From NCBI GenBank assembly GCA_002282015.1, contig NCIJ01000005.1:64598-128469 (forward strand): a DNA stretch of 63,872 bases, in the 5' to 3' direction. Of the stretch, positions 49,290-63,872 are shown piece after piece. The notes under the pieces are model-generated. The model was not told the origin of the DNA. It saw only the letters and a list, made by a program, of their open reading frames with translations, and searched no databases. The position numbers and the translations under genes were made by a program. The stretch's first letter is position 1, and every line of letters begins with the position of its first letter. Source of the DNA: Sulfuricurvum sp. 17-40-25. GTDB lineage: Bacteria; Campylobacterota; Campylobacteria; Campylobacterales; Sulfurimonadaceae.

Positions 49290-50251
49290 CACAACACCCC
49301 TCTTCGTCGCCATAGGATCAAGCCTAATACCAACAGTGACGAAGCCAAAAACCATTGAAAATAATGATCTTCCAAAATATTAGGAGCGCTTTTGATCCGT
49401 GAACGCTCCATACTATCGATCTCATCATAGACCTCTTGGAGTTCTTTGGCATTGGTGGCGGCAAAAAACTTACCCTTACCATCCCGTGCCAACTGTGCGA
49501 GCAGTGCATTGTCAAACTCTCCCTTTATACCAATGCCTATCGTATAAAGTCGAATATTGTTTTTACGTACCATCTCTATGGCTTCTTTTGGAGAGATCGA
49601 ACCGCTATTATGTTCTCCATCCGTCAATAAAATAATCACTTTAGATGCCGCTTTTGAATCTCGCAAAGCACGTACACCCATTGCGATTCCCTCACCTATA
49701 GCAGTGTTTTGCCCCGCCATTCCATAGCTTAGATACCCGATCATCTGAGCGATAATTTCTTTTTCATAGGTGATAGGAGACGCGATAAAAGCAAAATCAC
49801 CAAATTCCACAACACCGATATTATCTTGAGCGCGTTTCATCACAAAATCACTGGCGATCTTTTGCACGATCTCAAATCGGCTCTCACGGCTTCCTTCCTC
49901 ACCAAAGCCCGATGCATTCATCGATCCGCTGCCATCAATCGAGAGTACAATATCGACTCCGTTACGGTTACGAGGATCAGAAAAATCCACCATCACAGGA
50001 GTTGCCAACGCCCCTACCATCAGCGTCACGGCCAAAGCGTTGAGCAGCCAATCAAGATTGCGCCATTTGTTAAGTTTGGTAAAAAAATGAAGGTGGGGAA
50101 AATAGTGCTGTCTAACAGAGACCTTGCAACGGTATAAGCAATACATTAATAGCGGAAGCACTAACCCAGCAATAGGAAAATTAAAAAGCCAACTGTTCAT
50201 GTCGTGAATTATATCAAAATACGCTAAAACATCCCATACTATTGACATCAA
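49289..50251 (-). CDS. BatA-like von Willebrand A protein
   Basis: 320 residues. Two N-terminal membrane segments, von Willebrand A domain with the metal-ion site DGSGSMNASG (DxSxS), VILLTDGEHNSGSISPKEA, and a C-terminal membrane segment (WFLASSLLVLGLILWRRR). First gene of the Bat operon. Divergent from the tRNA genes. Confidence 0.88.
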   Translation of the reverse strand: MMSIVWDVLAYFDIIHDMNSWLFNFPIAGLVLPLLMYCLYRCKVSVRQHYFPHLHFFTKLNKWRNLDWLLNALAVTLMVGALATPVMVDFSDPRNRNGVDIVLSIDGSGSMNASGFGEEGSRESRFEIVQKIASDFVMKRAQDNIGVVEFGDFAFIASPITYEKEIIAQMIGYLSYGMAGQNTAIGEGIAMGVRALRDSKAASKVIILLTDGEHNSGSISPKEAIEMVRKNNIRLYTIGIGIKGEFDNALLAQLARDGKGKFFAATNAKELQEVYDEIDSMERSRIKSAPNILEDHYFQWFLASSLLVLGLILWRRRGVL

Positions 50252-50270
50252 AGCTTATATTCACTATAAT
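50242..50270 (+). promoter_or_regulatory. Perfect consensus promoter of the tRNA genes
   Basis: TTGACA at 50242-50247 and TATAAT at 50265-50270 with a 17-bp spacer: a perfect sigma-70 consensus, 43 bp before tRNA-Lys. Strong constant expression is expected. Confidence 0.85.
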
Positions 50271-50313
50271 TCCCGTCCACAAATCATGCTAACCGAATGA
50301 TTTAGTGCAGGTT

Positions 50314-50389
50314 GTCCCGTTAGCTCAGCTGGTAGAGCATTTCACTTTTAATGAAGGGGTCGATGGTTCGAATCCATCACGGGACACCA
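50314..50389 (+). tRNA. tRNA-Lys (TTT)
   Basis: 76 bases with encoded CCA. Acceptor GTCCCGT pairs with ACGGGAC; D-arm TAGCTCAGCTGGTAGAGCA; anticodon loop CTTTTAA gives TTT; T-arm GGTTCGAATCC. All four arms fold. Confidence 0.97.
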
Positions 50390-50414
50390 TTTTTTATTTT
50401 CCACATTTTGTTGT

Positions 50415-50489
50415 GGCTCCATCATCTAACGGTTAGGATCCCAGGTTTTCATCCTGGTCACAGGGGTTCAAATCCCCTTGGAGTCACCA
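50415..50489 (+). tRNA. tRNA-Glu (TTC)
   Basis: 75 bases with encoded CCA. Acceptor GGCTCCA pairs with TGGAGTC (one G-T); anticodon stem CCAGG/CCTGG with loop TTTTCAT gives TTC; T-arm has GGTTCAAATCC. The last 17 bases are repeated at 51396-51412. Confidence 0.97.
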
Positions 50490-50534
50490 CTACACTTTCC
50501 CTACACAGCGTACTTTAAACCACTTTAAGCTTTA
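50473..50534 (+). repeat. Direct repeat, copy in the tRNA-Glu 3' end
   Basis: 62 bases starting in the T-arm of tRNA-Glu and running 45 bases past its CCA. Matches 51396-51457 at 59 of 62 positions; the three differences lie just after CCA. Confidence 0.9.
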
Positions 50535-50591
50535 CTCGGTGACCGATTGAATCTCCACTTTTTTCTTTAAGTTTCAATTACAAATTAAAAA

Positions 50592-50927
50592 TTAAAAATT
50601 TTTGCAAAGATGGGCAATTACAGCATCATATTCAAGCGATGTAAGTTTCGCAATTTTCTCTTTTATTCTCATTTTTGAAAGAGCTCGGATTTGATTGATT
50701 AAAATATCCGAATCTTCTTTGAGACCATCTCGTTTTAAAATTCTGATTCTGTATGGATCCATATTATCAATAAGATCCGCTGAAAGAGGCATAAGGATGA
50801 CTGTATCTAAGATAGCATTTTCATCATCCCCTGAGATGATTACGGCAGGTCTGATTTTGCCTACTTCATCACCTTTTTTAGGGTAAAGATTGACGATGAC
50901 AATATCACCTCTATTTAAGTCCATCAT
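50592..50927 (-). CDS. MazF/PemK-family endoribonuclease toxin
   Basis: 111 residues. The fold starts NRGDIVIVNLYPKKGDEVGKIRPAVIIS, with the conserved Gly-Asp-Ile and the Arg-Pro-Ala/Val strand with catalytic Arg; IILMPLSADL-like strand and ILINQIRALSKMRI follow. Toxins of this family cut mRNA at short sequences. The start overlaps the antitoxin gene by 17 bp. Two neighbouring ATG codons are possible starts. Intact, so probably working. Confidence 0.9.
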   Translation of the reverse strand: MMDLNRGDIVIVNLYPKKGDEVGKIRPAVIISGDDENAILDTVILMPLSADLIDNMDPYRIRILKRDGLKEDSDILINQIRALSKMRIKEKIAKLTSLEYDAVIAHLCKNF

Positions 50928-51159
50928 CTACTCCAAGCTCTGCAAATTCCAAATCTTGATGATTTTTTAGTTTATGCAGTTTTGCAAGTTTTTCTTCTCG
51001 ATCGATTTTTTCGATGATTGGCAAGATAAAGCTTTCATATTTTGAAGAAATAAAATATCCCACAGTAGTATGCGCTCTTCTATCGACGATTTCAGCCACA
51101 TCCATAATTTTCATTAAAGAAGGTTTGTTTTGAATATCAGTTACACCATACGTTAACAT
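50911..51159 (-). CDS. Phd-like antitoxin
   Basis: 82 residues. The N-terminal part (VTDIQNKPSLMKIMDVAEIV, then TTVGYFISSKYE) has the Phd/YefM pattern for DNA binding and dimerisation; the C-terminal charged helix (EEKLAKLHKLKNHQDLEFAE) would wrap the toxin. First gene of the pair. Autoregulation is expected from the family. Confidence 0.82.
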   Translation of the reverse strand: MLTYGVTDIQNKPSLMKIMDVAEIVDRRAHTTVGYFISSKYESFILPIIEKIDREEKLAKLHKLKNHQDLEFAELGVDDGLK

Positions 51160-51192
51160 CTAATATCCTTTTTTTGTATTTAATCTATGTGT

Positions 51193-51198
51193 ATTATA
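51193..51198 (-). promoter_or_regulatory. Candidate -10 box of the toxin-antitoxin pair
   Basis: TATAAT on the minus strand, 33 bp before the antitoxin ATG; no convincing -35 box. Confidence 0.4.
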
Positions 51199-51272
51199 TC
51201 TTATATTTATTACCTTAGTTACTAGAATATACTTTTATGCTTATATTGGGATTTTTGAGAAAGCGCTTATGG

Positions 51273-51302
51273 TTGACTTTTCAACTTTAAACCTGATAGA
51301 AT
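51273..51302 (+). promoter_or_regulatory. Promoter-like sequence without a gene
   Basis: TTGACT at 51273-51278 and TAGAAT at 51297-51302 with 18 bp between, on the plus strand. A transcript would run through two hairpins (51323-51337 and 51386-51413) but no reading frame. Confidence 0.35.
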
Positions 51303-51385
51303 ACTTACAAATTTGGTACACAAATGTGTGACACATTCGGTGTTTGCTCTTCTAAAAAACCCTTATTTAGGGGATTGTAAAAATA

Positions 51386-51413
51386 TGGTGACTCTCCCCT
51401 TGGAGTCACCATA
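51386..51413. repeat. Perfect 10-bp stem hairpin at the second repeat copy
   Basis: ATGGTGACTC and GAGTCACCAT are exact reverse complements with an 8-base loop (51396-51403). The right arm is the tRNA-Glu acceptor end in the repeat. No T-run follows. Confidence 0.65.
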
Positions 51414-51457
51414 ACATTTTCCCTACACAGCGTACTTTAAACCACTTTAAGCTTTAT
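51396..51457 (+). repeat. Direct repeat, distal copy
   Basis: 62 bases matching 50473-50534 at 59 positions. Contains the last 17 bases of tRNA-Glu including CCA, without the rest of the tRNA. Confidence 0.9.
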
Positions 51458-51499
51458 CATAAATGAACTTTTCAGCAAAAAAACAGCATTAGCTCATAT

Positions 51500-51904
51500 T
51501 TAAATCATATAAGAGAGTTTCAATAAAATCAACTTTGCCTTTTCGTAACTTAGAGTTGAAAGTGCGTACTCTTCGCTTCCGCTGACATCCAAAAATACTT
51601 GCCTGATAGCTCGTTCGTTATTTAAATAGCCCATACACCATTGGCTAAACACCCGAACCGTAATTTCTTTTTCTCCTATGACATGAATATCCTGATGTCT
51701 AGGGTCACTAAATATATTCTTTTGAAGCTGGTTTACCTCGGCTTCATTGCCTTCAATGCACTGTAAAAATTGCTTCCCATCAAAAATCATCATTCCAGAA
51801 ATGCCAAACTCATTATTGTTCGCGACACATTGCGTTAAAATCTTCTGTATTACATCAAAGTTGACCGTTTGAGTTGCGGTACTGGCATAAATCATTTGCT
51901 TCAT
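51500..51904 (-). CDS. BLUF-domain blue-light sensor
   Basis: 134 residues from the ATG at 51904, which has CGGAG upstream; a TTG two codons earlier is possible. A stand-alone BLUF domain: Tyr6 (IYAST), Asn30 (NNNEFGISG) and Gln48 (FLQCIEG) correspond to Tyr21, Asn45 and Gln63 of AppA, the residues that rearrange around the flavin in blue light; a Trp follows in SQWCMGYL. The rest is the usual C-terminal helix pair. There is no output domain, so it must act through a partner. Confidence 0.92.
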   Translation of the reverse strand: MKQMIYASTATQTVNFDVIQKILTQCVANNNEFGISGMMIFDGKQFLQCIEGNEAEVNQLQKNIFSDPRHQDIHVIGEKEITVRVFSQWCMGYLNNERAIRQVFLDVSGSEEYALSTLSYEKAKLILLKLSYMI

Positions 51905-51924
51905 ACTCAAATGCTCCGTTATAA

Positions 51925-51940
51925 ATTATACTAAAGTATA
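51925..51940 (-). promoter_or_regulatory. -10 box of the BLUF gene overlapped by a palindrome
   Basis: On the minus strand TATAAT at 51930-51925, about 20 bp before the BLUF ATG. It is overlapped by the palindrome TATACT-AA-AGTATA (51927-51940), a place where a repressor would block transcription. Confidence 0.45.
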
Positions 51941-51963
51941 TGCACTTATCACTGAAGGTGTTG

Positions 51964-53496
51964 TTATCGATACCACAATCGCATAACAGCCGCACCCAAT
52001 AACGCATAACTAAACTCAGTAATACCCGCCATCCATGCTCCAACAGCCCCCAATCCCAACATCAATGCTACAACAATAGGACGAAGTGCCTTTTGAATAT
52101 TTTGCCCGATACTCTCTAATTGCAAGGGTGACAATTCTACTACCAATTCTCCACGGCTTGCACGTCGAAGTGTCTCTCTGGCGGCATGCAGATCATCAGG
52201 AAGATGTTTAATCTCATCAAAAATACTCTCTATAATTGAATCTTTCATCCCTAATGCTCGTGGAATGTTGTTCTGTAAGATCGGGAGGATGTCTTTTATC
52301 CCATTAAAGTTTTCGATATAGGTGGTTCCCAATCCTTCGACGATGGCACTGACCCGCAAGATGTAAATCGCTTCTTGAGGAAGTTTAAAGGGAAGGCTTC
52401 GAGTCTGTTCCAGCACCTGAAACGCAAGTTCTTGCATACTGCTACTATCGAGTGTATCATTGGCAAAGATCTCAAACATCCGCTGTGTAAATTCGGCAAG
52501 TTCAGCTACCGGAGCATCATAGGCCACAGTTCCAAGACGTTTTGAGGCACTCACATATGCTTCATAATCTTGCTCATTAGCCGCACGTAAAAGCTCGATG
52601 ATCGCGATGCGTGTCGAATTGGGGACACGCTTAACCATACCAAAATCCAGCAGTACCAACTCCCCTTGCGGCGTAACGAGGAGATTTCCTGGATGAGGAT
52701 CCGCATGAAAATATCCACGTACGAGCATCTGATCGGTATAAAACCGCACCAGCTTATCAATTAGAGGAACAATATCAATACCGCTGCCAATAATACTCTC
52801 TCTATCATCAAACCGCCATCCCTCATGATAACTCATCACCAACGCATCATCGCAGCTGTACTGACTATACGCGACAGGAAATATCACTCCAGATGAGGCA
52901 TACATGTGTGAAAACTTTTCCAAATTAGCACGTTCTTGATTCATACTGCATTCTTGGACAATCATGATCGAAAATTCAGAGATAACCGACTCAACTGAGT
53001 GGCGAGTCGTATGGGAAAAAAGTGGTCTGAAGATAACATTAAAGAACGACATGATTTGTATGTCCGCACGAACACGTTTTTCTATCCCCTCACGTCGCAG
53101 TTTTACTGCAACTTTCGTATCCTCATCCAACCATGCCTCGTGCACCTGACCGATTGAGGCGGAAGCTATGGGAATGGGATTAAAACGAGTAAATGGCAGT
53201 ACGGGAAATGCTCTGGCCATAACCTTCTCATACTCTTTTTCAGACATACGAGGGAGGTCGTCATGGAGAGTTTTGAGCGCATTTAGATAGAGGGGATCAA
53301 AAAAATCATTACGGGTAGCTAGTACTTGAGCCAGCTTGATAAAACTTGCCCCAAGTACAGCAATCGTACTGGTAAGTTTTTGAGGAGATAATGGTGCTAC
53401 CCCTAAAAATCGGCTCTTTTTCTTAATCAGAAGATAAAATGAGAGGAGAAGTCGGAAGACACTCCACAGCCGATAGGGGGAATAAAGAAAATTCAT
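51964..53496 (-). CDS. UbiB/ABC1-family atypical kinase
   Basis: 510 residues. The family N-terminal segment is FIKLAQVLATRNDFFDP (usual KxGQ changed to KLAQ), then SASIGQVHEAWL, VAVKLRREGI with the ATP-site Lys, FHADPHPGNLLV and LLDFGMVKRV. C-terminal end has two hydrophobic stretches (VALMLGLGAVGAWMAGITEF). UbiB aids ubiquinone synthesis; this organism seems to use menaquinone, so another lipid-related role is likely. Overlaps the small upstream gene by 4 bp. Confidence 0.88.
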   Translation of the reverse strand: MNFLYSPYRLWSVFRLLLSFYLLIKKKSRFLGVAPLSPQKLTSTIAVLGASFIKLAQVLATRNDFFDPLYLNALKTLHDDLPRMSEKEYEKVMARAFPVLPFTRFNPIPIASASIGQVHEAWLDEDTKVAVKLRREGIEKRVRADIQIMSFFNVIFRPLFSHTTRHSVESVISEFSIMIVQECSMNQERANLEKFSHMYASSGVIFPVAYSQYSCDDALVMSYHEGWRFDDRESIIGSGIDIVPLIDKLVRFYTDQMLVRGYFHADPHPGNLLVTPQGELVLLDFGMVKRVPNSTRIAIIELLRAANEQDYEAYVSASKRLGTVAYDAPVAELAEFTQRMFEIFANDTLDSSSMQELAFQVLEQTRSLPFKLPQEAIYILRVSAIVEGLGTTYIENFNGIKDILPILQNNIPRALGMKDSIIESIFDEIKHLPDDLHAARETLRRASRGELVVELSPLQLESIGQNIQKALRPIVVALMLGLGAVGAWMAGITEFSYALLGAAVMRLWYR

Positions 53497-53747
53497 GGCT
53501 TGAGCGCTTCAATATCCTTTTTGGTTGCAAGACCGAGTTCTTCGATCACCTCTTTGATAGCTGTTTTTAGCTCTTCTTTGAGACGGGTTTCCTCATTTTC
53601 ACCTTTGGTTTTTAGGTTTTCCAAAAAGCTTTTAGACTCATCTGCGTTGAGTTTCCCTTTTTCTTCAAGTTTTTTGAGTTCTTCTTCTACTTTTTCTTTG
53701 ATCAATAACGCTCCACCCATTCCGGTGTAAAACAATTCTTTTAACAT
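53493..53747 (-). CDS. Small coiled-coil, phasin-like protein
   Basis: 84 residues, mostly charged heptads (KVEEELKKLEEKGKLNADES and on). An N-terminal hydrophobic start (MLKELFYTGMGGALLI). The pattern resembles the polyhydroxyalkanoate-granule/phasin-like family often coded beside UbiB kinases. The ATGA overlap with the ubiB-like gene implies joint function, perhaps as regulator or membrane adaptor of the kinase. Confidence 0.7.
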   Translation of the reverse strand: MLKELFYTGMGGALLIKEKVEEELKKLEEKGKLNADESKSFLENLKTKGENEETRLKEELKTAIKEVIEELGLATKKDIEALKP

Positions 53748-53954
53748 GACATACTCCTGTATAAATGATAGAACATTATAGAGCTAAACTGGACAATATC
53801 GGTACTCTTTTTTTGTCAACTGATATTTTCATCTACTCATAATAATCAGTATAACCTCTAACATCATCATCAACTGCCAAAAAACATCTACGAAAGTCGT
53901 CTGTAATATTTTATTATTCTCTTCTAAAATAAATTAAATAGTATAAGGGCTCAC

Positions 53955-54833
53955 ATGAAAACGAAACTCGCCATCGAATGGTTTCTCAACCCTGATCATC
54001 TACCTTTTATCGTTGCACAAAGATGTGGAATATTTGACAAATACGGTATTGAATTTGAGCTTATTGAGCCCAATGAGCATTATGACGGTTTGTCTGAATT
54101 GCTGGCAGGAAATATTCACTTTGCTACGAATGAACCGCTTCACCTCATAGAACAATATGACGACAATTTTCTCTCACTTGGAATGTTTTTTGAGACGCAG
54201 GGTGGCGTGTTACTAAAGGCATCTTCATATGAAAAACTCCTAAACGGCAAAAATATTATTGTTACAACCCCCGTTTCCAATGAAACAACCAATACAATAG
54301 GGTTTGAGATTATTCGACGTTTTTATGCTCAAAAAGGGGTAGTAGTCTCGCGTAATCAAGTGACATTTGTTCAAAATGGCTTTGAACATCTCAAATACAT
54401 GAAAGAAGGTGCCGATGCAGGATGGCTTTATTTTTATAATTTTGAAGGGATCGAAGCACAGCACGAAGGTATGGATGTAGTTTATTTAGATGCCAAAAAC
54501 GCAGGGTTTGCAAATTTTAGCGCACTGGATATTTTTGTAAACAAATCATACTATCACTCAAATACGGTAATATGTGAAACATTTATACGTGCAATTAAAG
54601 AAGCAATTATTTATATCCATACCTCTCCTGAAGTGGCAATGGATGAGTATTACAAATATACCAATAGTGAGACAACACCTCTCATGGATGATATTTTACG
54701 TGCAACAATACGCTGTTTTAACCCTGATTTTAGTTCTAGCTACGCTCAAGAACTTCCTATTTTGGAGTTCTTTACCGAGATTGGTGTAACGACATTGGAC
54801 AAAAATGATTTTAAAAACGCTTTTTTGAGCTAA
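53955..54833 (+). CDS. THI5/NMT1-like (ThiY-like) protein without signal peptide
   Basis: 292 residues of the periplasmic-binding fold. It starts MKTKLAIEWFLNPDHLPFIV, matching the THI5/ThiY start with the conserved Trp; NPDHLPFIVAQRCGIFDKYG is the substrate-side segment. No signal peptide or lipobox is present and no transporter genes are near. The yeast Thi5 substrate His region corresponds to ATNEPLHLI: the His is kept, but the pyridoxal-binding Lys is Asn and the CCCFC motif is missing. It precedes thiD by 15 bp, so it belongs to thiamine metabolism, as a cytoplasmic binder or enzyme. The 207 bp before it show no TPP riboswitch that I can recognise. Confidence 0.7.
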   Translation: MKTKLAIEWFLNPDHLPFIVAQRCGIFDKYGIEFELIEPNEHYDGLSELLAGNIHFATNEPLHLIEQYDDNFLSLGMFFETQGGVLLKASSYEKLLNGKNIIVTTPVSNETTNTIGFEIIRRFYAQKGVVVSRNQVTFVQNGFEHLKYMKEGADAGWLYFYNFEGIEAQHEGMDVVYLDAKNAGFANFSALDIFVNKSYYHSNTVICETFIRAIKEAIIYIHTSPEVAMDEYYKYTNSETTPLMDDILRATIRCFNPDFSSSYAQELPILEFFTEIGVTTLDKNDFKNAFLS

Positions 54834-54848
54834 AGAAAAGGAAAAAAG

Positions 54849-55619
54849 ATGAAAGTCGTTCTAACCATAGCAGGATCTGACAGTAGCGGAGGCGCTGGTA
54901 TTCAGGCAGATTTAAAAACATTTGAAGCGTTTGGAGTGTTTGGAACTTCTGCTATTACCGTATTAACCGCTCAAAATACCACTGGGGTTCAATCACTCTT
55001 CCCCCTAAGTGTTGATTTCATCGAACAACAGATACAAAGTGTACTGAGTGATTTTGACGTAGCTGCTATTAAAATCGGTATGCTCTACGATACCGATATC
55101 ATCCAAATGGTACACCGTATTATTGAACCTTTGATCATACCCATTGTTCTTGACCCTGTGTGTATTTCAAAAGCTGGTTCACTATTACTTAAAGACGATG
55201 CTATCGATGCACTGCGTGATTTAAGCCGGATTGTTACCCTATCAACTCCAAATCTACATGAGGCATACCGACTGTTTGGTTATAAAGCCGATGACACAGA
55301 TTCTCATGCGCAGATTATGCAACATCGATCACCCGTTCTCATCAAACATCATGTCATGAACACGACTACATCGGATATACTGTATTTTGGTAACAAAAAA
55401 CAGATTTTTACCGCTGAAATGATAGATTCAACTTCTCAACACGGTACTGGATGTTCCTATTCATCTGCTATTGCAGCCAGCCTTGCTTTGGGACTAAATC
55501 TTGCACAATCTATTGAAAAAGCGAAACGCTTTATCACTCATGCTATTGTCCAAGCACCCCACATCGGTCATGGACCAGGTCCTATTAATCATAAATCAGG
55601 GGGAGATCATGTTGCCTAA
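54849..55619 (+). CDS. thiD: Hydroxymethylpyrimidine (phosphate) kinase ThiD
   Basis: 256 residues, ribokinase fold. Motifs: TIAGSDSSGGAGIQADLKTFEAFGV at the start (positions 54860-54930), AIKIGMLYDTDII, LDPVCISKAGSLLL, and the catalytic HGTGCSYSSAIAA. Phosphorylates HMP and HMP-P for thiamine. Its end overlaps thiE by 11 bp. The ribosome site AAGGAAAAA is good. Confidence 0.95.
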   Translation: MKVVLTIAGSDSSGGAGIQADLKTFEAFGVFGTSAITVLTAQNTTGVQSLFPLSVDFIEQQIQSVLSDFDVAAIKIGMLYDTDIIQMVHRIIEPLIIPIVLDPVCISKAGSLLLKDDAIDALRDLSRIVTLSTPNLHEAYRLFGYKADDTDSHAQIMQHRSPVLIKHHVMNTTTSDILYFGNKKQIFTAEMIDSTSQHGTGCSYSSAIAASLALGLNLAQSIEKAKRFITHAIVQAPHIGHGPGPINHKSGGDHVA

Positions 55620-56217
55620 AGGACTCTATGTCATAACCGATGAAACACTCACTCCCGACGATACTGTTGTAGAACAAATTCGCACAGTACTTCAAGCAGG
55701 GGTAAAAATCATTCAATATCGTAATAAAAATGATGCCGACAGTGATGTAGAAGAGGTTTGTATCCAACTGCAACAGTTATGCACTCTACACGGTGCCACA
55801 TTTATCATCGATGATAGACCCCATCTGGCACAAAAAATACAGGCAGATGGTTTGCACATCGGTAAAAATGATAGTAGTCTTCAAGAAGCACGTCTAATCT
55901 TTCCTAATGGCATTATCGGCGTATCCTGCTATGGAAGTGTTCGAAAAGCACTGGAAGCCCAAAATGAGGGAGCCAGTTACGTAGCATTTGGCTCGTTCTA
56001 TCATTCACCTACAAAACCCCATTCCGGCATTGTCTCGATGAGCGTATTAGCAAAAGCCAAGGAAGCATTATCTATCCCAATTTGTGCTATCGGAGGGATT
56101 AATGCCACTAACATTCATGAAATCTCTACTCACGATCCTGATATGATCAGCGTGGTATCAGCCGTATTTGAAGGCGATATCAAACATAATATTGCAAAGC
56201 TTGCACAAGGAATGTAA
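55609..56217 (+). CDS. thiE: Thiamine-phosphate synthase ThiE
   Basis: 202 residues from the ATG in CATGTTGCC, with GGGGGAG before it; a longer frame further up lies inside thiD and is rejected. TIM barrel with IIQYRNKNDADSD, FIIDDRPHLAQKIQADGLHIG, YVAFGSFYHSPTKP and CAIGGINATNI. Joins HMP-PP and thiazole phosphate. Last gene of the trio ThiY-like-thiD-thiE. Confidence 0.94.
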   Translation: MLPKGLYVITDETLTPDDTVVEQIRTVLQAGVKIIQYRNKNDADSDVEEVCIQLQQLCTLHGATFIIDDRPHLAQKIQADGLHIGKNDSSLQEARLIFPNGIIGVSCYGSVRKALEAQNEGASYVAFGSFYHSPTKPHSGIVSMSVLAKAKEALSIPICAIGGINATNIHEISTHDPDMISVVSAVFEGDIKHNIAKLAQGM

Positions 56218-56259
56218 CTTTTAGGCTATAGTAATAAAAATAATTTCAAAGGAAATACT

Positions 56260-57327
56260 ATGAATTGCCTGCAATGTCAAACCCTCCCTGATATCTCAAA
56301 AAAAAGTGGGCAACTCATTGTCAGCTGTAGTGTTTTTGAATTGTGCACTAAAATGGCGATTTTCCTTAAGAGTAAAAATAGTGCTTTTCACCATGAAGAC
56401 GCCCAAACACTTATTATAGACGTCGATAGTTTCCAGCCATTTCTTCATCAGCTATTCGATGCAGCAGTATTCAATAAACTGGAGCTAGAAGGCATTCGTG
56501 TCCTTTTTTTGGAAGGGACTCAAATCCTCACTCCCTCCATTCTAAAAGAGATGCGAACACTGCAAAAATTCAAAGATCTCATGGGTGCCGATCAACTCTC
56601 TGCCCTGATTACCAAAGGGGCACTGACCACTCACTTTCAACCTATTATCGATCTAAAATCCAATATTATCTATGGATATGAGTCTCTCGCTCGTGGGGTG
56701 AGTGATGATGGCAGTTTGATCTATCCCGATAAACTTTTTACCTGGGCACGGGAGGGAGATATGCTTTTTTATTTAGATCGAGCGTGTCGTGAATCTTCGC
56801 TCAAATCTGCCGCTGTCAAAAGTATTCAGTCTAAAGTCTTTATTAATTTTATTCCTACCGCTATATATGATCCAGAACATTGTTTACAATCAACCGTTAA
56901 ATGGGCCAAACAACTCGAATTTGATCCAAAAAATATAATCTTTGAAGTAATCGAAAGCGATTATGTTGAAGATTTAGATCATTTGAAACGTATTTTGGAC
57001 TTTTATAAGTCTCAAGGGTTTATGGTCGCATTGGATGATGTTGGAAGCGGTTACTCATCCTTAAATATGATTGCCAAACTGCTCCCGGATATCGTCAAGA
57101 TTGACCGAGCTATTATCGATCAAATCGATACCAACGATATAAATCAATCCATCTTTAGAGCCATTACTCAAATCGCCCATGAAAACAATATAATTGTCTT
57201 AGCTGAGGGGATTGAGCGCGCTGAAGAACTAGCCTTTTGTTCTGCAAACGGTGCAGATTTGGCACAAGGATATTATTTCGGCCGTCCCAATGCTGAGCCG
57301 ATACGAAAACTATGTTTAGGAGAATAA
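56260..57327 (+). CDS. EAL-domain cyclic-di-GMP phosphodiesterase with Cys-rich N-terminus
   Basis: 355 residues. The EAL domain (about residues 125-350) keeps its catalytic set: GYESLARG (EAL motif as ESL), FINFIP (Asn), FEVIESD (Glu), ALDDVGSGYSSL (Asp pair), VKID (Lys) and LAEGIE (Glu). It should therefore cleave c-di-GMP. The N-terminal 120 residues are not a known sensor to me; they carry MNCLQCQ (CxxC) and two more Cys (SCSVFELC), so metal or redox sensing is possible. No GGDEF part. Confidence 0.82.
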   Translation: MNCLQCQTLPDISKKSGQLIVSCSVFELCTKMAIFLKSKNSAFHHEDAQTLIIDVDSFQPFLHQLFDAAVFNKLELEGIRVLFLEGTQILTPSILKEMRTLQKFKDLMGADQLSALITKGALTTHFQPIIDLKSNIIYGYESLARGVSDDGSLIYPDKLFTWAREGDMLFYLDRACRESSLKSAAVKSIQSKVFINFIPTAIYDPEHCLQSTVKWAKQLEFDPKNIIFEVIESDYVEDLDHLKRILDFYKSQGFMVALDDVGSGYSSLNMIAKLLPDIVKIDRAIIDQIDTNDINQSIFRAITQIAHENNIIVLAEGIERAEELAFCSANGADLAQGYYFGRPNAEPIRKLCLGE

Positions 57328-57364
57328 TTCATTTTCTCACCAAGTGACATATACTCTCTACGAA

Positions 57365-57388
57365 AATAATAGCTTTCATTCTATTATT
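57365..57388. promoter_or_regulatory. Inverted repeat before the light-type operon
   Basis: AATAATAG and CTATTATT are perfect inverted arms of 8 bp with 8 bases between, 30 bp upstream of the small membrane peptide gene. TATACT at 57350-57355 just before it may be the -10 box. Could be an operator or a leader hairpin. Confidence 0.4.
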
Positions 57389-57417
57389 CTTCTATATTCA
57401 TTACTAGGAGGAATAAA

Positions 57418-57516
57418 ATGATTGAAACATCACAAGACTATCCTTTGGTAGCACTTATCGGTTCTATTGCACTCGTTTATATATCCCTTAACTTTATTTG
57501 GAATGGCTCTTTTTGA
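57418..57516 (+). CDS. 32-residue single-span membrane peptide
   Basis: Begins at an ATG with a perfect AGGAGG ribosome site 6 bp before it and ends in a TGA overlapped by the next start. The product (MIETSQDYPLVALIGSIALV and on to FIWNGSF) has one hydrophobic span of about 18 residues. Strong translation signal, good fit to the next gene and no other use for this region support it as a real gene. I recognise no family. Confidence 0.65.
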   Translation: MIETSQDYPLVALIGSIALVYISLNFIWNGSF

Positions 57517-58949
57517 TCCGAGAATACGCAATCATCGGTGGCGGTATCGGAGGATGCTCTATTGCAGCCCTTTTAAATGCCAAAGGTCATGATGTTGTAT
57601 TGATTGAAAAAGAGCCCTCACTTGGAGGATGTGCTTCTACGTTTTCACACGGAGGCAATCGCTACAATGCAGGAGCAACTACAATTTCTGGCTATCATGA
57701 AGGCGGTATTGTCCGTCGTGTATTTGAAACGGTAGGAATTACCCCTGATGTGATTTCTACTGATCCTGCCATAACCATCATCCAAGGTGATAAAAAATGT
57801 GTACGCTATCGTGACTTAGAACGTTTTATCGTTGAAGTCGAGGCCTTTTATCCCCATCCTAAACATCGAGAATTTTGGACATTGGTACACACCCTTGGTG
57901 TTGCTTTTTATAGTATAGAAGGACATTATTACTCCAACCGATCTGGTTTTATGAAAATTCGTTCACTACTGAGTCTTTACCCAATTTTAAAGCGCTTTTG
58001 GAGATATCTTTTTGGAAATGCCCGTGATTTTATTATTCGATTTTATGGAACTGTAACGCCAGAATATCTCGATTTTTTGGATGCACAAATTCTTATCGTC
58101 GCTCAAGCTAAGAGTGAGAAAGTCAACTTTTTTACAGCAGCCCTTAGTCTGGGCTATACTTTTAACGAAACACACTATCCCCTAGGTGGAATGGGAGCTG
58201 TGTGTACCTCGTTGACCTCCAACATTCCTGAAATTTTAACAGAATGTGAAGTCACGGCAATCACTAAAGATACAAACATCTATACGCTATCAACGTCCAA
58301 AGGTACTATCAGGTGTAAAAATCTCATTATGGGAACCTCCCATTACGAGAGCTCACAATGGTTCAGTGATCCTAGTATCAAGCAATACTATCAAAAATAC
58401 GAAAAGCTCAACAACCATCAAAGCGCTTTTGTTCTATATATGACTATCAAAACACCTACCCAATATCACCACCACTATCAGCTCATATCTGATGAAGTTC
58501 TCCCACATACTCTTTCCAAGTCGGTTTTTGTCTCTTTTAGCGATCCAAGCGATAGCTTTATGGCTCCTGCAGGATACTACCGTGTCACAGCATCCATTCA
58601 TACCGATACCCGTTTTTGGACGGTACTTTCTAAAACCCAATACCACGATCAAAAGAAAGCACTTCAAAACTTTCTGCAACAGTGGATTTGTGATAAACTT
58701 GGCGTGCAAAATGAGGAAATTACTGAGAGTTTTGCTGCCACACCCAAAACATTCGGTCGATACATACATCGTACTCAGCTAGGAGGAAACGCCTTGACTC
58801 TCGCAAATTTTCTTCCCCGTTTGCCCGCAAACGATACCCCTATAAAAGGGCTGTATCAAGTAGGAGATACGGCCTATGCTGCTCAAGGCTGGCCAGGTGT
58901 CGTCATGGGAGCATTTAATTGCATGAGGATGATCAATGGGAAACATTGA
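57513..58949 (+). CDS. FAD-dependent oxidoreductase of the carotenoid desaturase/isomerase type
   Basis: 478 residues from a TTG that overlaps the upstream TGA (TTGA); an earlier TTG five codons up is possible. The dinucleotide site is IIGGGIGGCSIAALLNAKGH and then LIEKEPSLGGCASTF and RYNAGATTISG; the C-terminal flavin motif is GLYQVGDTAYAAQGWPGVVMG. Closest in pattern to phytoene desaturase and CrtISO-like proteins. No phytoene synthase is visible here, so substrate is unknown. Overlaps the sensor kinase gene by 14 bp. Confidence 0.82.
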   Translation: MIREYAIIGGGIGGCSIAALLNAKGHDVVLIEKEPSLGGCASTFSHGGNRYNAGATTISGYHEGGIVRRVFETVGITPDVISTDPAITIIQGDKKCVRYRDLERFIVEVEAFYPHPKHREFWTLVHTLGVAFYSIEGHYYSNRSGFMKIRSLLSLYPILKRFWRYLFGNARDFIIRFYGTVTPEYLDFLDAQILIVAQAKSEKVNFFTAALSLGYTFNETHYPLGGMGAVCTSLTSNIPEILTECEVTAITKDTNIYTLSTSKGTIRCKNLIMGTSHYESSQWFSDPSIKQYYQKYEKLNNHQSAFVLYMTIKTPTQYHHHYQLISDEVLPHTLSKSVFVSFSDPSDSFMAPAGYYRVTASIHTDTRFWTVLSKTQYHDQKKALQNFLQQWICDKLGVQNEEITESFAATPKTFGRYIHRTQLGGNALTLANFLPRLPANDTPIKGLYQVGDTAYAAQGWPGVVMGAFNCMRMINGKH

Positions 58950-59958
58950 GCTAAAGATCACACGATACGATTGGCTGAGCGTTCTCGTCATCGGGACGTC
59001 ATTTTCGACACTTTTATCCCTATTTGGCTATTACTTGCTTGGATTACCCCCTATTAATGGAGCCTGGTTTGGTCTGGCATTAGGTTTTTTTATTACGATA
59101 TTTTCACTGGCTTTTATCAGCTTTATGAACCATTATCTTTTACCTAATATCGATAAAAAATTCTGGAATACTACTGCGGCATTCTTTTCATTTCTTGCAG
59201 GTTTTTTGGGAACTCTAACTACGTACTATACACTCCAATACAGTGAGATTAGTATCATTGAACTGTTTTCCATTCACCCGTTTCAAAGCGCCTCCATCAT
59301 CGGATTGCTCACCTATCTTATGGGAGCGCTCATCTATCGTTTTGTTAAAACACGCAATGAAAAAGAGCACATAGATACCCTTTTCATCCAAAGCCGTGTA
59401 CGTTCACTGGAAACTCAGCTTAATCCCCATTTTTTATACAATGCACTCAACTCACTCGCAGAACTCATCCACCAAGATCCCCTTCGAGCAGAAGCAGCTG
59501 TGATTAAAATATCCACATTTTTACGCAATACAATGATCGAAGCTCCCCTCATAACTCTCGAACAAGAGATACGTAATGCCAGCGATTACATCGAACTTGA
59601 AAATATCCGTTTTAACGGGCATATTCAACTCTCTATCGAAGTTGATGACGCGATCAAAAACAGCTTAGTCCCAAAGTTTTCCATTCAACTGCTGTGTGAA
59701 AATGCCATAAAACACAGTATGATTAACTCAATACAACCTTTTAATATCACCATACATGCTTTTAAAGAGAATGGTATACGCATCAACGTATCCAATAATG
59801 GGAAAGAGGTTACGTCAACCGCCTTTGGCATTGGTCTTTCAAATCTGCAAGAGCGTTTATCCCACTTATGTGAGGGAAAAGTCACTATAGGACATCTGAG
59901 TCCTCCAACCTATACCATCATGCTAAAGGAACTCTATGAATTTTCTGATCGTCGATGA
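58936..59958 (+). CDS. LytS-type sensor histidine kinase
   Basis: 340 residues. Four membrane segments in the first 135 residues, no extra sensor domain, then the His_kinase-type motif QLNPHFLYNALNSLAELI with the phospho-accepting His, the N-box LCENAIKHSM, and GIGLSNLQERL. Partner of the LytTR regulator it overlaps by 23 bp. The input is likely sensed in the membrane part. Located inside a metabolic operon instead of outside it. Confidence 0.87.
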   Translation: MGNIELKITRYDWLSVLVIGTSFSTLLSLFGYYLLGLPPINGAWFGLALGFFITIFSLAFISFMNHYLLPNIDKKFWNTTAAFFSFLAGFLGTLTTYYTLQYSEISIIELFSIHPFQSASIIGLLTYLMGALIYRFVKTRNEKEHIDTLFIQSRVRSLETQLNPHFLYNALNSLAELIHQDPLRAEAAVIKISTFLRNTMIEAPLITLEQEIRNASDYIELENIRFNGHIQLSIEVDDAIKNSLVPKFSIQLLCENAIKHSMINSIQPFNITIHAFKENGIRINVSNNGKEVTSTAFGIGLSNLQERLSHLCEGKVTIGHLSPPTYTIMLKELYEFSDRR

Positions 59959-60625
59959 TGAATCACTCGCCATCTCACGTCTAACGCGACTGTTGACATC
60001 TCTTGGACATAGTTCCATAACTGCAGCTTCCAACGGTGCAGAAGCGCTTGAACTTGCCTCACAGCAAAAGTTTGACATTGCCCTTTTGGACATCTCCATG
60101 TCACAGATGGATGGGATTGAGTTGGGATATGCCTTGCGGTATCAACATGAAGATTTAGCCATTATCTATCAAACAGCGTATGACCATCATGCACTCAAAG
60201 CATTCGATGTGGGAGCAGTGGATTATTTACTCAAACCCTATACTGCCGAAACTTTGGAGCGTGCTATTGCACGTGTCACGATTAACAATGTTCCCAAGGA
60301 ACTGCGACTCATCTCCAAAGCTGGAGAAAACCATTATCTTTTATCACCCCAAGACCTGTACTACGTCAAAGCCGATTTAACCGAAGTAATGTTTCGCTCA
60401 ACCGAGGGCTTTTCTTATTATCCCAAAAAAATATCTGATGTTGAAGCACTCTTGGAGCCACATGGTTTTTTACGTATCCATCGCTCCTACCTCGTCAATC
60501 TAAATCGGGTAAAAGAGATGGAAACAATCGATCAAAGCCGTATCAGCTTCAGCTTTGAGGGAATCAAAGAGACCGTTGAAAGCTCCAAAGACGGAGCCAA
60601 ACAGTTTCGCCATCTATTTAAATAA
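59936..60625 (+). CDS. LytTR-type response regulator
   Basis: 229 residues. Receiver with IVDDESLAISRL, the phospho-acceptor Asp in ALLDISMSQMDG and Lys in YLLKPY; C-terminal LytTR DNA-binding domain (YYVKADLTEVMF, YYPKKISDVEALL, FLRIHRSYLVNLNRVKEM). Binds direct repeats in promoter DNA. Overlaps the kinase; lipocalin gene follows after 23 bp. Confidence 0.92.
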   Translation: MNFLIVDDESLAISRLTRLLTSLGHSSITAASNGAEALELASQQKFDIALLDISMSQMDGIELGYALRYQHEDLAIIYQTAYDHHALKAFDVGAVDYLLKPYTAETLERAIARVTINNVPKELRLISKAGENHYLLSPQDLYYVKADLTEVMFRSTEGFSYYPKKISDVEALLEPHGFLRIHRSYLVNLNRVKEMETIDQSRISFSFEGIKETVESSKDGAKQFRHLFK

Positions 60626-60648
60626 TCAACTACCTAAAGGATTACTCC

Positions 60649-61185
60649 ATGCACCATTTACTAACGTTCGCCTTTACCGCCTTCATGATTCTCGGATGCA
60701 GTACCTCTAGTATTGCACCGCTTCAGACCGTAAAAACTTTGGACTTACAACAGTACAAAGGAAAATGGTATGAAATAGCACGCTATGAAAACCATTTTGA
60801 AAAGGGATGTGTCGGTGCCACTGCCGATTATGCCCTCAACAGTGATCACGTAGGCGTTACTAACAGTTGTTATGATGCAAAGGGGACCATGACAGCCCAA
60901 GCCCAGGGAAAAGCCTATGCAGTCGAAAATTCTCAAAACACAAAACTGCGTGTCACTTTTTTCTGGCCCTTTTACGGTGATTACTGGGTACTCATGATGG
61001 GGGATGATTATCGCTACAGTGTTGTGGGTGATCCATCACGCAAATACCTCTGGATTCTCTCTCGTACTACGACACTCAGTGATTCGGATCGTAAACATAT
61101 TCTTTCAAGGCTACCCGAATTCGAATACAGCAGTGACCAGCTTTATTGGACCGATCCAAAAGCCTATTCAAAGACACTACCATGA
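60649..61185 (+). CDS. blc: Lipocalin lipoprotein (Blc-like)
   Basis: 178 residues. Lipoprotein signal with Cys in FMILGCSTS; lipocalin start QQYKGKWYEIARYENHFEKG (GxW motif), TDPK-like end LYWTDPKAY. Bacterial lipocalins bind membrane lipids in the outer membrane under stress. Good ribosome site AAAGGA. The stop overlaps the next start (ATGA). Confidence 0.93.
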   Translation: MHHLLTFAFTAFMILGCSTSSIAPLQTVKTLDLQQYKGKWYEIARYENHFEKGCVGATADYALNSDHVGVTNSCYDAKGTMTAQAQGKAYAVENSQNTKLRVTFFWPFYGDYWVLMMGDDYRYSVVGDPSRKYLWILSRTTTLSDSDRKHILSRLPEFEYSSDQLYWTDPKAYSKTLP

Positions 61186-61643
61186 AGCTACACACTCTAA
61201 ACTATTCGTGTCTACTAACCGCATCTCAAGAAGCGGTTTGTCAATTCCATACCGATACCCACAACCTACCACTCATTACCCCGCCATGGATTGATGTAAC
61301 CATTGTCCAGATGGATACGCCTATGGTAGAAAACTCATCCGTTATCTTGGACATCAAACGCTATGGTTTCAGTACCCGATGGACTATGAATATTGAAAAG
61401 CTTTCTTGCCCTGAGACGGTCATTGATGTGATGATTTCAGGACCATTTTCCTTTTTTCGGCACGAACGACGATTCATAGCCGTATCAGAGTCTGAAACAC
61501 GTATGGATGAGACACTTACCTTTGCCCTTCCATTAGGTTGGCTTGGAAACCTCATCGCACCGTTTATCAAAAAAGACATGGATAAGATGTTTGCCTATCG
61601 CCATCATGCTACTCAAAATTATTTTTCCAAGGAAGCCAAATGA
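61182..61643 (+). CDS. SRPBCC-like cyclase/dehydrase-type protein
   Basis: 153 residues from the ATG that overlaps the lipocalin stop. The pattern of a helix-grip hydrophobic-ligand fold is visible: LPLITPPWIDVTIVQMDTPM near the start, VILDIKRYGFSTRWTMNIEK, and a C-terminal helix LGNLIAPFIKKDMDKMFAYR with the family HH pair (YRHHATQNYF). Such proteins commonly lie beside photolyase genes. Ligand or reaction unknown. Overlaps the DUF523 gene by 4 bp. Confidence 0.7.
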   Translation: MKLHTLNYSCLLTASQEAVCQFHTDTHNLPLITPPWIDVTIVQMDTPMVENSSVILDIKRYGFSTRWTMNIEKLSCPETVIDVMISGPFSFFRHERRFIAVSESETRMDETLTFALPLGWLGNLIAPFIKKDMDKMFAYRHHATQNYFSKEAK

Positions 61644-62587
61644 AAATCGCGGTATCCGGATGCCTCTTAGGTGAAAAAATCCGCTTTGACGCAGGACATA
61701 AACATGACCGCTTCATCACGGATGAACTGGGGAAGTTCTCTGAATTTGTCTCATTTTGCCCTGAACATTTGGCCTTTGGGACACCCCGTCCAACCGTACG
61801 GCTCGTAAAAGTCCATGATGCAATTCAGGTGCAATCCAACAAAACAGGCGATGATCTCACCGACGTACTCATGCAAACCAGTCACAGTGAGCTTCAAAAA
61901 CTCGAAACTGAACCACTGTGCGGAATCATTTTTAAATCCAAATCTCCAAGCTGTGGGATGAACAGTGCAAAGCTTTACCTGGAAAATGGGATGAGTGATG
62001 GGAAAGAGGATGGGGTTTTTATGCGTCTATGCCGCGAACGATTCCCTCTGTTGCCAATGGAAGAAGAAGGACGGCTGGAAGACGCATGGTTACGAGAAAA
62101 TTTTGTGATGCAATTATTTGCCTATGATACATTTCAAAAGTTCAATACCTCTGCTCCTACGCTAAATAAATTGGTCAAATTCCATACAGCACACAAATTT
62201 TTGCTTCAAGCCAAAGATGAAACACTTTATCGAGAACTTGGGAACATCGTCGCAAATCGAAGCGATTTATCGTTTGAAGCATTGCTTGGACAATACGAGC
62301 TTGGATTTAAAACCGCCATCAGCCGTAAAAGCTCTATAAAGCGTAATCGCAATGTCCTGGATCATCTCGCTGGCTTTTTTAAAAAAGAGCTCACAAAGAG
62401 TGAAAAAGAGACCCTTCACGATCAAATTCGCGATTATGCTGACAAGATCATCCCTCTCATTGTTCCTCTCTCAACGATTCATCTTTATGCACGTAAATAC
62501 GATACCAAGTATCTATTGGAACAGACATTTTTAGACCCTTATCCAAAAACACTCGCATTGCGTTCCCATATCAAAAGCGGCAAATAA
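61640..62587 (+). CDS. DUF523-DUF1722 two-domain protein
   Basis: 315 residues. N-terminal DUF523: SGCLLGEKIRFDAGHKHD, CPEHLAFGTPRP and KSKSPSCGM, with conserved Cys in each, suggesting metal binding. C-terminal DUF1722 (LVKFHTAHKFLLQAKD, RNRNVLDHLAGFFKKEL), similar to YbgA, which precedes phrB in E. coli. The domain fusion is usual in bacteria with photolyase. Activity unknown. Two bases before the photolyase. Confidence 0.9.
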   Translation: MKIAVSGCLLGEKIRFDAGHKHDRFITDELGKFSEFVSFCPEHLAFGTPRPTVRLVKVHDAIQVQSNKTGDDLTDVLMQTSHSELQKLETEPLCGIIFKSKSPSCGMNSAKLYLENGMSDGKEDGVFMRLCRERFPLLPMEEEGRLEDAWLRENFVMQLFAYDTFQKFNTSAPTLNKLVKFHTAHKFLLQAKDETLYRELGNIVANRSDLSFEALLGQYELGFKTAISRKSSIKRNRNVLDHLAGFFKKELTKSEKETLHDQIRDYADKIIPLIVPLSTIHLYARKYDTKYLLEQTFLDPYPKTLALRSHIKSGK

Positions 62588-62589
62588 CC

Positions 62590-63828
62590 GTGCGACGTAT
62601 ATTGTGGTTTCGACGTGATTTAAGAGTTCATGATAATCCACTGCTCTCCCAAGAGGGAGATGTCTTACCTATCTTTATCTTTGATTCTGCGATATTGGAA
62701 TCATTACCTGTAAACGATCGGCGTGTCACCTTTATCTTTCACTCACTGTTACATCTCAAATCTGCATTACAGGCACGAGGTCTTGATCTCGCACTCTTTT
62801 ACGGAAAACCTGCCGATGTATTTAGTTGGCTGTTGCAAAATGGCTCATATCATGATGTATGCGCTTCAGGAGATTATGATGCTTATGCACTTTCGCGTGA
62901 TCGTGAGGTCTCTCACCTTTTAGAGTTTACCTATGTACACGATACGTATATTTTTACTCCCGATGAAGTGCTCAAAAAAGACAAGACTCCTTATCAAGTC
63001 TTTACCCCTTTTTACAACAGTGCCAAAGCTATCTTCAATCCTGCTCATATGAAAGAATTCATCCCTGTTTCACAGATGCCAATCGACTTTGATTACACAT
63101 CCATTCATCGTATTGATATGCACGGACATACGACGCTTCCAATCGCTCTTGAATCCATTCACTTTCAAGTGCAAAATCTTACGGACCATCAAAAAATGCC
63201 CCCAGATGAAAAACTCACACTTTTCTCCCAAAAACTAGCACACTACCAGCATAATCGTGATTATATGATCTTGGATGCAACTTCTTCTCTGAGCACTGAT
63301 CTTCGATTTGGAACCATTTCGATTCGTGCAGTACTGCGATGGCTGGTTGAACAAAAAAAACAGGGAATTGATACTGAACCTTTTTTCAGGCAACTTATTT
63401 TTCGAGACTTTTACGCCATGTTACTGTATCACTTCCCACATCTTGCAACTCAAAATTTTCGCTACCGTTTTGAGGGGATACCAAATGAGGATTATTTTAA
63501 AGCATTTTGCACCGCTAAAACAGGCGTACCTATCGTCGATGCAGGTATTAGTGAATTGTTAAAAACCGGAGAGATGCATAATCGTGTACGGATGATTTGT
63601 GCGAGTTTCTTGACCAAAAACCTGCTGTTACCATGGCAGTGGGGTGAGGCTTTTTTTGCACAGTATTTAATGGATTACGATGCGAGTTCCAATATCCTAT
63701 CATGGCAATGGAGCGCAGGTACAGGTGTCGATCCGCAACCCTATTTTCGGATTTTTAATCCCACAACCCAAACTGTGTCAACGGCGGAGTTAAATTCGGC
63801 AGATTTTCGTAAAAAACATTACGAATAG
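62590..63828 (+). CDS. phr: Deoxyribodipyrimidine photolyase
   Basis: 412 residues from a GTG start. The antenna domain starts RRILWFRRDLRVHDNPLL; the FAD-binding half has FFRQLIFRDFYAMLLYHFP, GVPIVDAGISELLKTG, MHNRVRMICASFLTKNLL and SNILSWQWSAGTGVDPQPYF, so core flavin and substrate residues are present. It ends RIFNPTTQTVSTAELNSADF and six more residues; the usual FDPxGxYIRRW continuation is missing and it is 30-60 residues shorter than typical. Uses light to split thymine dimers. Last gene of the operon. Confidence 0.92.
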   Translation: MRRILWFRRDLRVHDNPLLSQEGDVLPIFIFDSAILESLPVNDRRVTFIFHSLLHLKSALQARGLDLALFYGKPADVFSWLLQNGSYHDVCASGDYDAYALSRDREVSHLLEFTYVHDTYIFTPDEVLKKDKTPYQVFTPFYNSAKAIFNPAHMKEFIPVSQMPIDFDYTSIHRIDMHGHTTLPIALESIHFQVQNLTDHQKMPPDEKLTLFSQKLAHYQHNRDYMILDATSSLSTDLRFGTISIRAVLRWLVEQKKQGIDTEPFFRQLIFRDFYAMLLYHFPHLATQNFRYRFEGIPNEDYFKAFCTAKTGVPIVDAGISELLKTGEMHNRVRMICASFLTKNLLLPWQWGEAFFAQYLMDYDASSNILSWQWSAGTGVDPQPYFRIFNPTTQTVSTAELNSADFRKKHYE

Positions 63829-63872
63829 TAACCTTAAGCGACGACAGTTGAATCTACTCCTTTTACTAATTT

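Follow-up and report, generated by a model that had tools for sequence, protein, structure and literature searches.

What controls the genes of a light-damage response when they are encoded together with a two-component system of their own? The question is raised by an eight-gene operon of Sulfuricurvum sp. 17-40-25 (phylum Campylobacterota), located in a stretch of 63,872 nucleotides (assembly GCA_002282015.1, contig NCIJ01000005.1, positions 64,598 to 128,469) that is referred to here, at its full length, as the window. An earlier note, made from the letters of the window, had described eight genes on one strand as a light or photo-oxidative stress operon with its own LytS/LytTR pair. Their order and spacing are confirmed by the coordinates and their families by hidden Markov models (HMMs), and the functional reading is partly supported, by the gene order in relatives and by a promoter motif. 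In our view the locus is likely to form the centre of a regulon against photo-oxidative stress that is controlled by the two-component system it encodes. The operon consists of the following features:

57418-57516, + strand: membrane peptide of 32 amino acids (aa), kept in Sulfuricurvum directly 5' of the gene for a second ferrochelatase (hemH2) or of the FAD gene
57513-58949, + strand: CrtD/CrtISO-like FAD oxidoreductase, 478 aa, TTG start, 4-bp overlap with the membrane peptide gene; HMM Amino_oxidase
58936-59958, + strand: LytS-type histidine kinase, 14-bp overlap with the FAD gene; HMM His_kinase PF06580
59936-60625, + strand: LytTR response regulator, 23-bp overlap with lytS; HMMs Response_reg and LytTR
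60649-61185, + strand: Blc-type lipocalin, 23-bp gap after the LytTR gene; HMM Lipocalin_2
61182-61643, + strand: SRPBCC protein, 4-bp overlap with the lipocalin gene; HMM Polyketide_cyc
61640-62587, + strand: RudS (TudS-DUF1722, that is DUF523-DUF1722), predicted tRNA 4-thiouridine (s4U) desulfidase, 4-bp overlap; HMMs 2-thiour_desulf and DUF1722
62590-63775, + strand: 5' part of a DNA photolyase gene, about 395 residues, 2-bp gap after the RudS gene; HMMs DNA_photolyase and FAD_binding_7
63776-63872, + strand: end of an insertion sequence (IS; TGTCAACGGCGGAGTTAAA...), reaching the contig end

Every junction between the eight genes is an overlap or a gap of at most 23 bp. The short first reading frame is probably a real gene, since relatives encode the same peptide in the same position. 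The seventh product has, by HMM, the fusion of TudS (DUF523) to DUF1722 that defines RudS, a family with tRNA s4U desulfidase activity (PMC11417400). A generic sigma-70 promoter scan of the operon gave no more matches than shuffled sequences; terminator-like matches are more frequent than in shuffles (13 vs 5.0) but are located within genes.

Related Campylobacterota share this gene order, which is not unique to the window genome. Among 81 loci, LytS is present in 79, the LytTR regulator in 75 and the FAD gene in 72, and the order FAD-LytS-LytTR is almost constant, with short overlaps. Judged from these comparisons, the operon arrangement is not due to chance, and the core triad is present in dozens of Campylobacterota genomes. 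Of the 60 genomes searched, 19 encode a LytS orthologue, counting the window genome; 16 of the 19 belong to the same genus, which named records place in Sulfuricurvum, and further copies are present in Sulfurimonas, Sulfurovum, Sulfurospirillum, Malaciobacter, Arcobacter/Aliarcobacter and two metagenome-assembled genomes (MAGs) labelled Nitrospiraceae. Both LytS and the FAD gene are found in 18 of the 60 genomes, LytS only in 1, the FAD gene only in 1 and neither in 40 (Fisher P=4e-13, a value that, like the other co-occurrence and motif-count P-values below, is optimistic since the genomes are related and not independent). Because LytS is nearly always accompanied by the FAD protein, the latter probably has a part in signalling or is itself the primary target. 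In Sulfuricurvum sp. MLSB (L091; G034:C107), HemH2 is followed at 79 bp by LytS and the FAD gene was not found genome-wide, a natural loss of the flavoprotein with the kinase retained. The sole FAD orthologue without a detected LytS in the 60 genomes lies on G056:C57 (L204 5397-6815). In the two Nitrospiraceae-labelled MAGs (L143, L159), the triad has a methyltransferase-like gene at its 5' side and reflects either transfer or a binning error.

The cargo that surrounds the triad is of a photo-oxidative type. Across the 81 loci it includes ferrochelatase (39), RudS (34), photolyase (32), SDR (22), lipocalin (20), SRPBCC (18) and glutathione peroxidase (13). Some Sulfurovum and Sulfurimonas loci have a run of MFS-Blc-amine oxidase-DUF1365-Cfa-DUF3833-GPx-SDR-HemH-FAD-LytS-LytTR, in which the names MFS, SDR, GPx, Cfa, DUF1365, DUF3833 and ferrochelatase were assigned by eye from sequence, ferrochelatase being confirmed by PF00762. 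From the photo-oxidative set seen across the loci (phr, RudS, cfa, hemH2, gpx, SDR and lipocalin), the window has phr, RudS and lipocalin, together with SRPBCC.

A similar set is known from two other systems. The RpoE2/ChrR regulon of Shewanella oneidensis includes gpx-hemH2, ybgA-phrB...cfa and phr-SDR (PMC4336711). The Campylobacterota cargo likewise has hemH2 with glutathione peroxidase, photolyase with SDR, and phr/cfa genes, with a RudS-type gene here versus one annotated as ybgA in Shewanella. Control is different: Shewanella uses an ECF sigma/anti-sigma pair, whereas the Campylobacterota loci encode LytS/LytTR and a CrtD/CrtISO-like flavoprotein. The ChrR anti-sigma factor was above cut-off in none of the 60 relatives, which led us to reject ECF/ChrR control of the operon and fits the earlier suggestion that LytS/LytTR replaces a regulator of this type. 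Light-inducible operons under class II LitR/PplR in Pseudomonas contain phrB, RudS, SDR, an FAD oxidoreductase and ufaM, the furan fatty acid synthase gene (PMC9758184, PMC11417400), and share phr with RudS, SDR and the FAD oxidoreductase with the Campylobacterota loci; their regulator is a MerR-type repressor with a B12 or LOV partner, whereas here it is a membrane two-component system. For blue light, Vibrio cholerae uses MerR and ChrR (PMC5241685). No LitR/CarH B12-MerR gene is present in or beside the operon, the wider genomes not having been searched for LitR. In the open-access literature we found no paper linking LytTR to photolyase regulation, photo-oxidative genes or blue light.

The earlier note had suggested a search for LytTR-type direct repeats near 57330-57400. 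A conserved motif is indeed located there. Expectation maximisation on 110 non-redundant sequences, taken unaligned from upstream of LytS-neighbouring operons, returned one 26-bp motif, TcAAccGACAAAtaA.ccCTAC.AAA, with a log-likelihood of 712 versus 93-112 in Markov-resampled sets. The promoter consensus, AAYYGACA-N8-CTACNAA followed by 16 nt and TAWAAT, is found 5' of most such operons. The motif can be read as an imperfect direct repeat with a 13-bp register, though an inverted reading scores almost equally. As the -10 box lies exactly 16 nt 3' of the motif in 56 of 71 sites, the second half-site occupies the -35 position, as in activator-dependent promoters. The window has two such promoters, neither of which was used in training:

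57340-57365, + strand: predicted LytTR-type promoter motif of the operon (CCAAGTGACATATACTCTCTACGAAA), 25.8 bits
57382-57387, + strand: -10 box TATTAT, exactly 16 nt after the operon motif, as in most relatives
53870-53895, + strand: predicted LytTR-type promoter motif of the neighbouring THI5-like/thiD/thiE/EAL operon (TCAACTGCCAAAAAACATCTACGAAA), 25.6 bits
53912-53917, + strand: -10 box TATTAT, 16 nt after the 53870-53895 motif

These are the only matches above 20 bits at the 127,744 positions of the window, each 5' of an operon, and five shuffles gave none above 15. Motif counts go with LytS. In a set of 37 Sulfuricurvum genomes, copies of the IUPAC motif average 3.5 in the 16 with LytS versus 1.1 in the 21 without (P=1e-5); the reversed pattern gives 0.8 versus 1.2 per genome (P=0.3). 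Further sites in relatives lie 5' of thi genes, EAL genes, SRPBCC, lipocalin-amine oxidase and RudS-phr. The window genome has a third motif promoter at G000:C34:230623-230648 (L246 4624-4649), with 27.1 bits and TATAAT at 16 nt, 5' of a 64-aa reading frame. The motif is also found 5' of a small coiled-coil-like gene followed by an ABC1/UbiB-type kinase gene (L202 11150, L042 11544), whose orthologues in the window (51964-53747, - strand) have no motif site. Matches 5' of 'c489' in several genomes were rejected, being coding sequence within what, judged from sequence, is an aminofutalosine-synthase-like gene, and having no -10 box.

These promoters bear on whether there is shared regulation at all. 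The stress genes could have been assembled by gene transfer, with LytS/LytTR controlling only itself or unrelated targets, and the variation of the cargo among genera points that way, as do the RudS-phr pairs that also occur alone in genomes without LytS. We find this very improbable, given a common promoter motif with fixed -10 spacing that is present at unlinked operons as well (G010, G001, G013, G023) and covaries with LytS. The genome comparisons give good support to a takeover of the photo-oxidative regulon by LytS/LytTR: gene content, triad conservation, the motif with its promoter geometry, and the covariation of motif counts and flavoprotein with LytS can all be read directly from them.

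Several observations nevertheless weigh against a light-responsive regulon under LytS/LytTR. Besides the relatedness of the genomes behind the P-values, the training promoters were picked for their proximity to LytS. This LytS is present in just 12 of 200 phylum-wide genomes, in a patchy distribution. In two genomes with LytS (G026 and G003) the unlinked RudS-phr genes have no motif, and in most Sulfuricurvum without LytS the RudS-phr pairs are solitary and likewise free of it. Conversely, strong motif promoters occur in three genomes without LytS, G007 (L214 3211), G008 (L255 5880) and G033 (L256 4734), where another protein, such as another LytTR, may bind, or LytS may have been missed or the assembly be incomplete. 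Finally, HMM and fold searches did not find a recognised photosensory or chromophore domain in LytS.

What, then, would the kinase sense? LytS has the H-, N- and G-boxes of PF06580, with H165, N256 and G300 invariant, and its AlphaFold model (pLDDT 85, pTM 0.56) has four transmembrane (TM) helices at 10-34, 39-71, 74-101 and 115-161. No Pfam family matches the TM part, and none of its Lys, Cys or His residues is invariant, which disfavours a rhodopsin-like or covalently bound chromophore. A fold search matched the kinase domain only, including the DesK family, and nothing matched the TM domain. The partner has the receiver aspartate and the LytTR domain; D7, D8, D52 and K100 are at least 95% conserved in 70 sequences. 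The pair resembles the AgrA, YpdB/YehT and AlgR systems in joining a PF06580 kinase to a LytTR regulator with a repeat-type site, here predicted, just 5' of the promoter, but differs from them in a TM sensor domain outside Pfam and in the 13-bp repeat register. Classical LytTR sites have a repeat spacing longer than 13 bp.

A four-TM kinase without a chromophore domain, and with the membrane-sensing DesK family among the best structural matches of its kinase domain, would also suit a response to general oxidants or membrane-lipid damage and not to light. LytS would then read a change in the bilayer or the quinone pool, and photolyase and RudS would be passengers of a mainly oxygen or peroxide response. 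The glutathione peroxidase, Cfa, lipocalin and second ferrochelatase in the cargo agree with this, and the homologous Shewanella RpoE2 regulon responds to hydrogen peroxide (PMC4336711). It is harder to reconcile with photolyase and RudS, which are specific to near-UV and UV damage and by gene order repeatedly share the transcription unit of the triad. We rate this explanation as quite possible, if short of an even chance. Judged from the cargo genes, light or singlet oxygen would be what induces the regulon; LytTR would be the protein that binds the motif, and its binding would activate transcription.

The flavoprotein could indicate a different signal. Its structure is predicted with a pLDDT of 92, with conserved glycines for nucleotide binding and a conserved GD...QGWPG motif at the C-terminus. 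It resembles the CrtD/CrtISO family in its full-length HMM match and in its top fold match, the gamma-carotenoid desaturase 4rep, but its scores are far under the cut-offs (186 bits vs 549.7 for CrtD, 113.5 vs 586.9 for carotenoid isomerase), its hosts have no phytoene/squalene synthase, and its linkage to LytS/LytTR is near-constant. As a profile search found that synthase (PF00494) in none of the 60 relatives' genomes, a carotenoid operon is ruled out, a carotenoid substrate is unlikely in these hosts, and the earlier idea of a pigment sensed by the kinase is weakened. Candidate substrates would be an isoprenoid quinone, a porphyrin or a lipid.

The porphyrin has a case of its own, in which the locus would serve heme/porphyrin homeostasis: the flavoprotein would be an aerobic enzyme of protoporphyrinogen-oxidase (PPOX) type and a partner of ferrochelatase 2, and an accumulated porphyrin, the photosensitiser, would be the signal for LytS. 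In many relatives hemH2 lies directly 5' of the FAD gene, often with a 4-bp overlap, and a second ferrochelatase gene is confined to LytS+ genomes (8 of 13, versus 0 of 28 LytS- genomes; P=1e-5). The FAD protein has a fold of the PPOX superfamily, and the missing phytoene/squalene synthase fits as well. However, PPOX models match only the N-terminal nucleotide-binding part, which rules out PPOX as a family assignment, though a porphyrin may still be the substrate, and the full-length resemblance is to CrtD/CrtISO. The triad also persists without hemH2 in the window genome and several others; since the sole ferrochelatase of the window genome sits on C34 and not at the operon, hemH2 has probably been lost from its position here. 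On balance, this explanation is unlikely. Similarly doubtful is a bolder proposal, that the flavoenzyme and the four-TM LytS together make up a photo-oxidative sensor of a new kind in Campylobacterota that replaces B12-, LOV- and zinc-anti-sigma sensing, with the flavoenzyme as a light/redox antenna or as the maker of a lipid-, isoprenoid- or porphyrin-derived ligand for the kinase.

Under the favoured reading, a photo-oxidative-stress regulon run by LytS/LytTR, a membrane stress signal would cause the four-TM LytS to autophosphorylate at H165 and to phosphorylate the LytTR regulator at D52. The regulator would bind the AAYYGACA-N8-CTACNAA repeat in its 13-bp register, standing in for a -35 element 16 nt from the -10 box. 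Binding would turn on lipocalin, SRPBCC, RudS and photolyase, the flavoprotein, kinase and regulator in an autoregulatory loop, and also the adjacent THI5-like/thiD/thiE/EAL operon. In relatives the regulon would further include the second ferrochelatase, SDR, glutathione peroxidase and a Cfa/DUF1365/amine-oxidase/DUF3833 operon.

Beyond the earlier note, the analysis brought out the second ferrochelatase 5' of the flavoprotein in many relatives, the motif on the thiamine/EAL operon and an IS in the photolyase gene. The photolyase had been read as an eighth gene ending at 63828. It is present from 62590, but the reading frame is not intact: IS sequence begins at about 63776 and cuts it at about residue 396, so an intact photolyase is ruled out. 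The window ends with its contig, C35, and the final 98 or so bases recur at the ends of C29 and C44 beside different flanks, a pattern that fits a repeated IS. The opposite IS end, with a 27-bp inverted repeat, lies at the ends of C39, C22 and C34. On C39 it occupies positions 1-96 and is followed by AACTG and then by the lacking photolyase C-terminus; AACTG also closes the left flank in C35, indicating a 5-bp target duplication. Next on C39 is a TrkH-like gene, which is found 3' of the operon in the closest relatives. The genome has a single PF03441 gene, whose FAD_binding_7 match covers 1-136 of 203 positions (profile search), and lacks the complete FAD-binding domain of a functional photolyase. 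Because this only copy is partial and split by the IS, photolyase function has probably been lost in this genome. The photolyase C-terminus is somewhat shorter in the closest relatives as well.

The second motif promoter of the window precedes these genes:

53955-54833, + strand: NMT1/THI5-like protein, 292 aa, signal peptide not obvious
54849-55619, + strand: ThiD, phosphomethylpyrimidine kinase
55609-56217, + strand: ThiE-like thiamine phosphate synthase by sequence resemblance, start set at an internal ATG
56260-57327, + strand: EAL-domain (c-di-GMP phosphodiesterase-like) protein by HMM, with orthologues elsewhere that have the motif upstream

Genes for thiamine synthesis, including thiE-like, lie beside the triad in other genomes too. 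A TPP riboswitch on the operon was ruled out, as the Rfam matches in 50000-63872 are two tRNAs only. The window genome also encodes ThiC, an Fe-S enzyme, beside which the THI5-like protein would provide a second route, possibly less sensitive to oxygen or light than ThiC; the bacterial THI5-like protein may also not be an enzyme at all. To our knowledge, thiamine genes were not previously known in the photo-oxidative gene set, and with a THI5-like route besides ThiC they would be an unexpected addition to the regulon.

Two unrelated regulator types, ECF/ChrR and B12/LOV-LitR, run nearly the same light and singlet-oxygen gene set. If our reading is correct, a membrane LytS with a flavoprotein would be a third, pointing to repeated regulator swaps over a conserved damage-response set. 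The predicted motif and the exact geometry of its promoters open the regulon to direct tests, and sulfur-oxidising Campylobacterota living at redox interfaces would have a testable response to light and oxygen.

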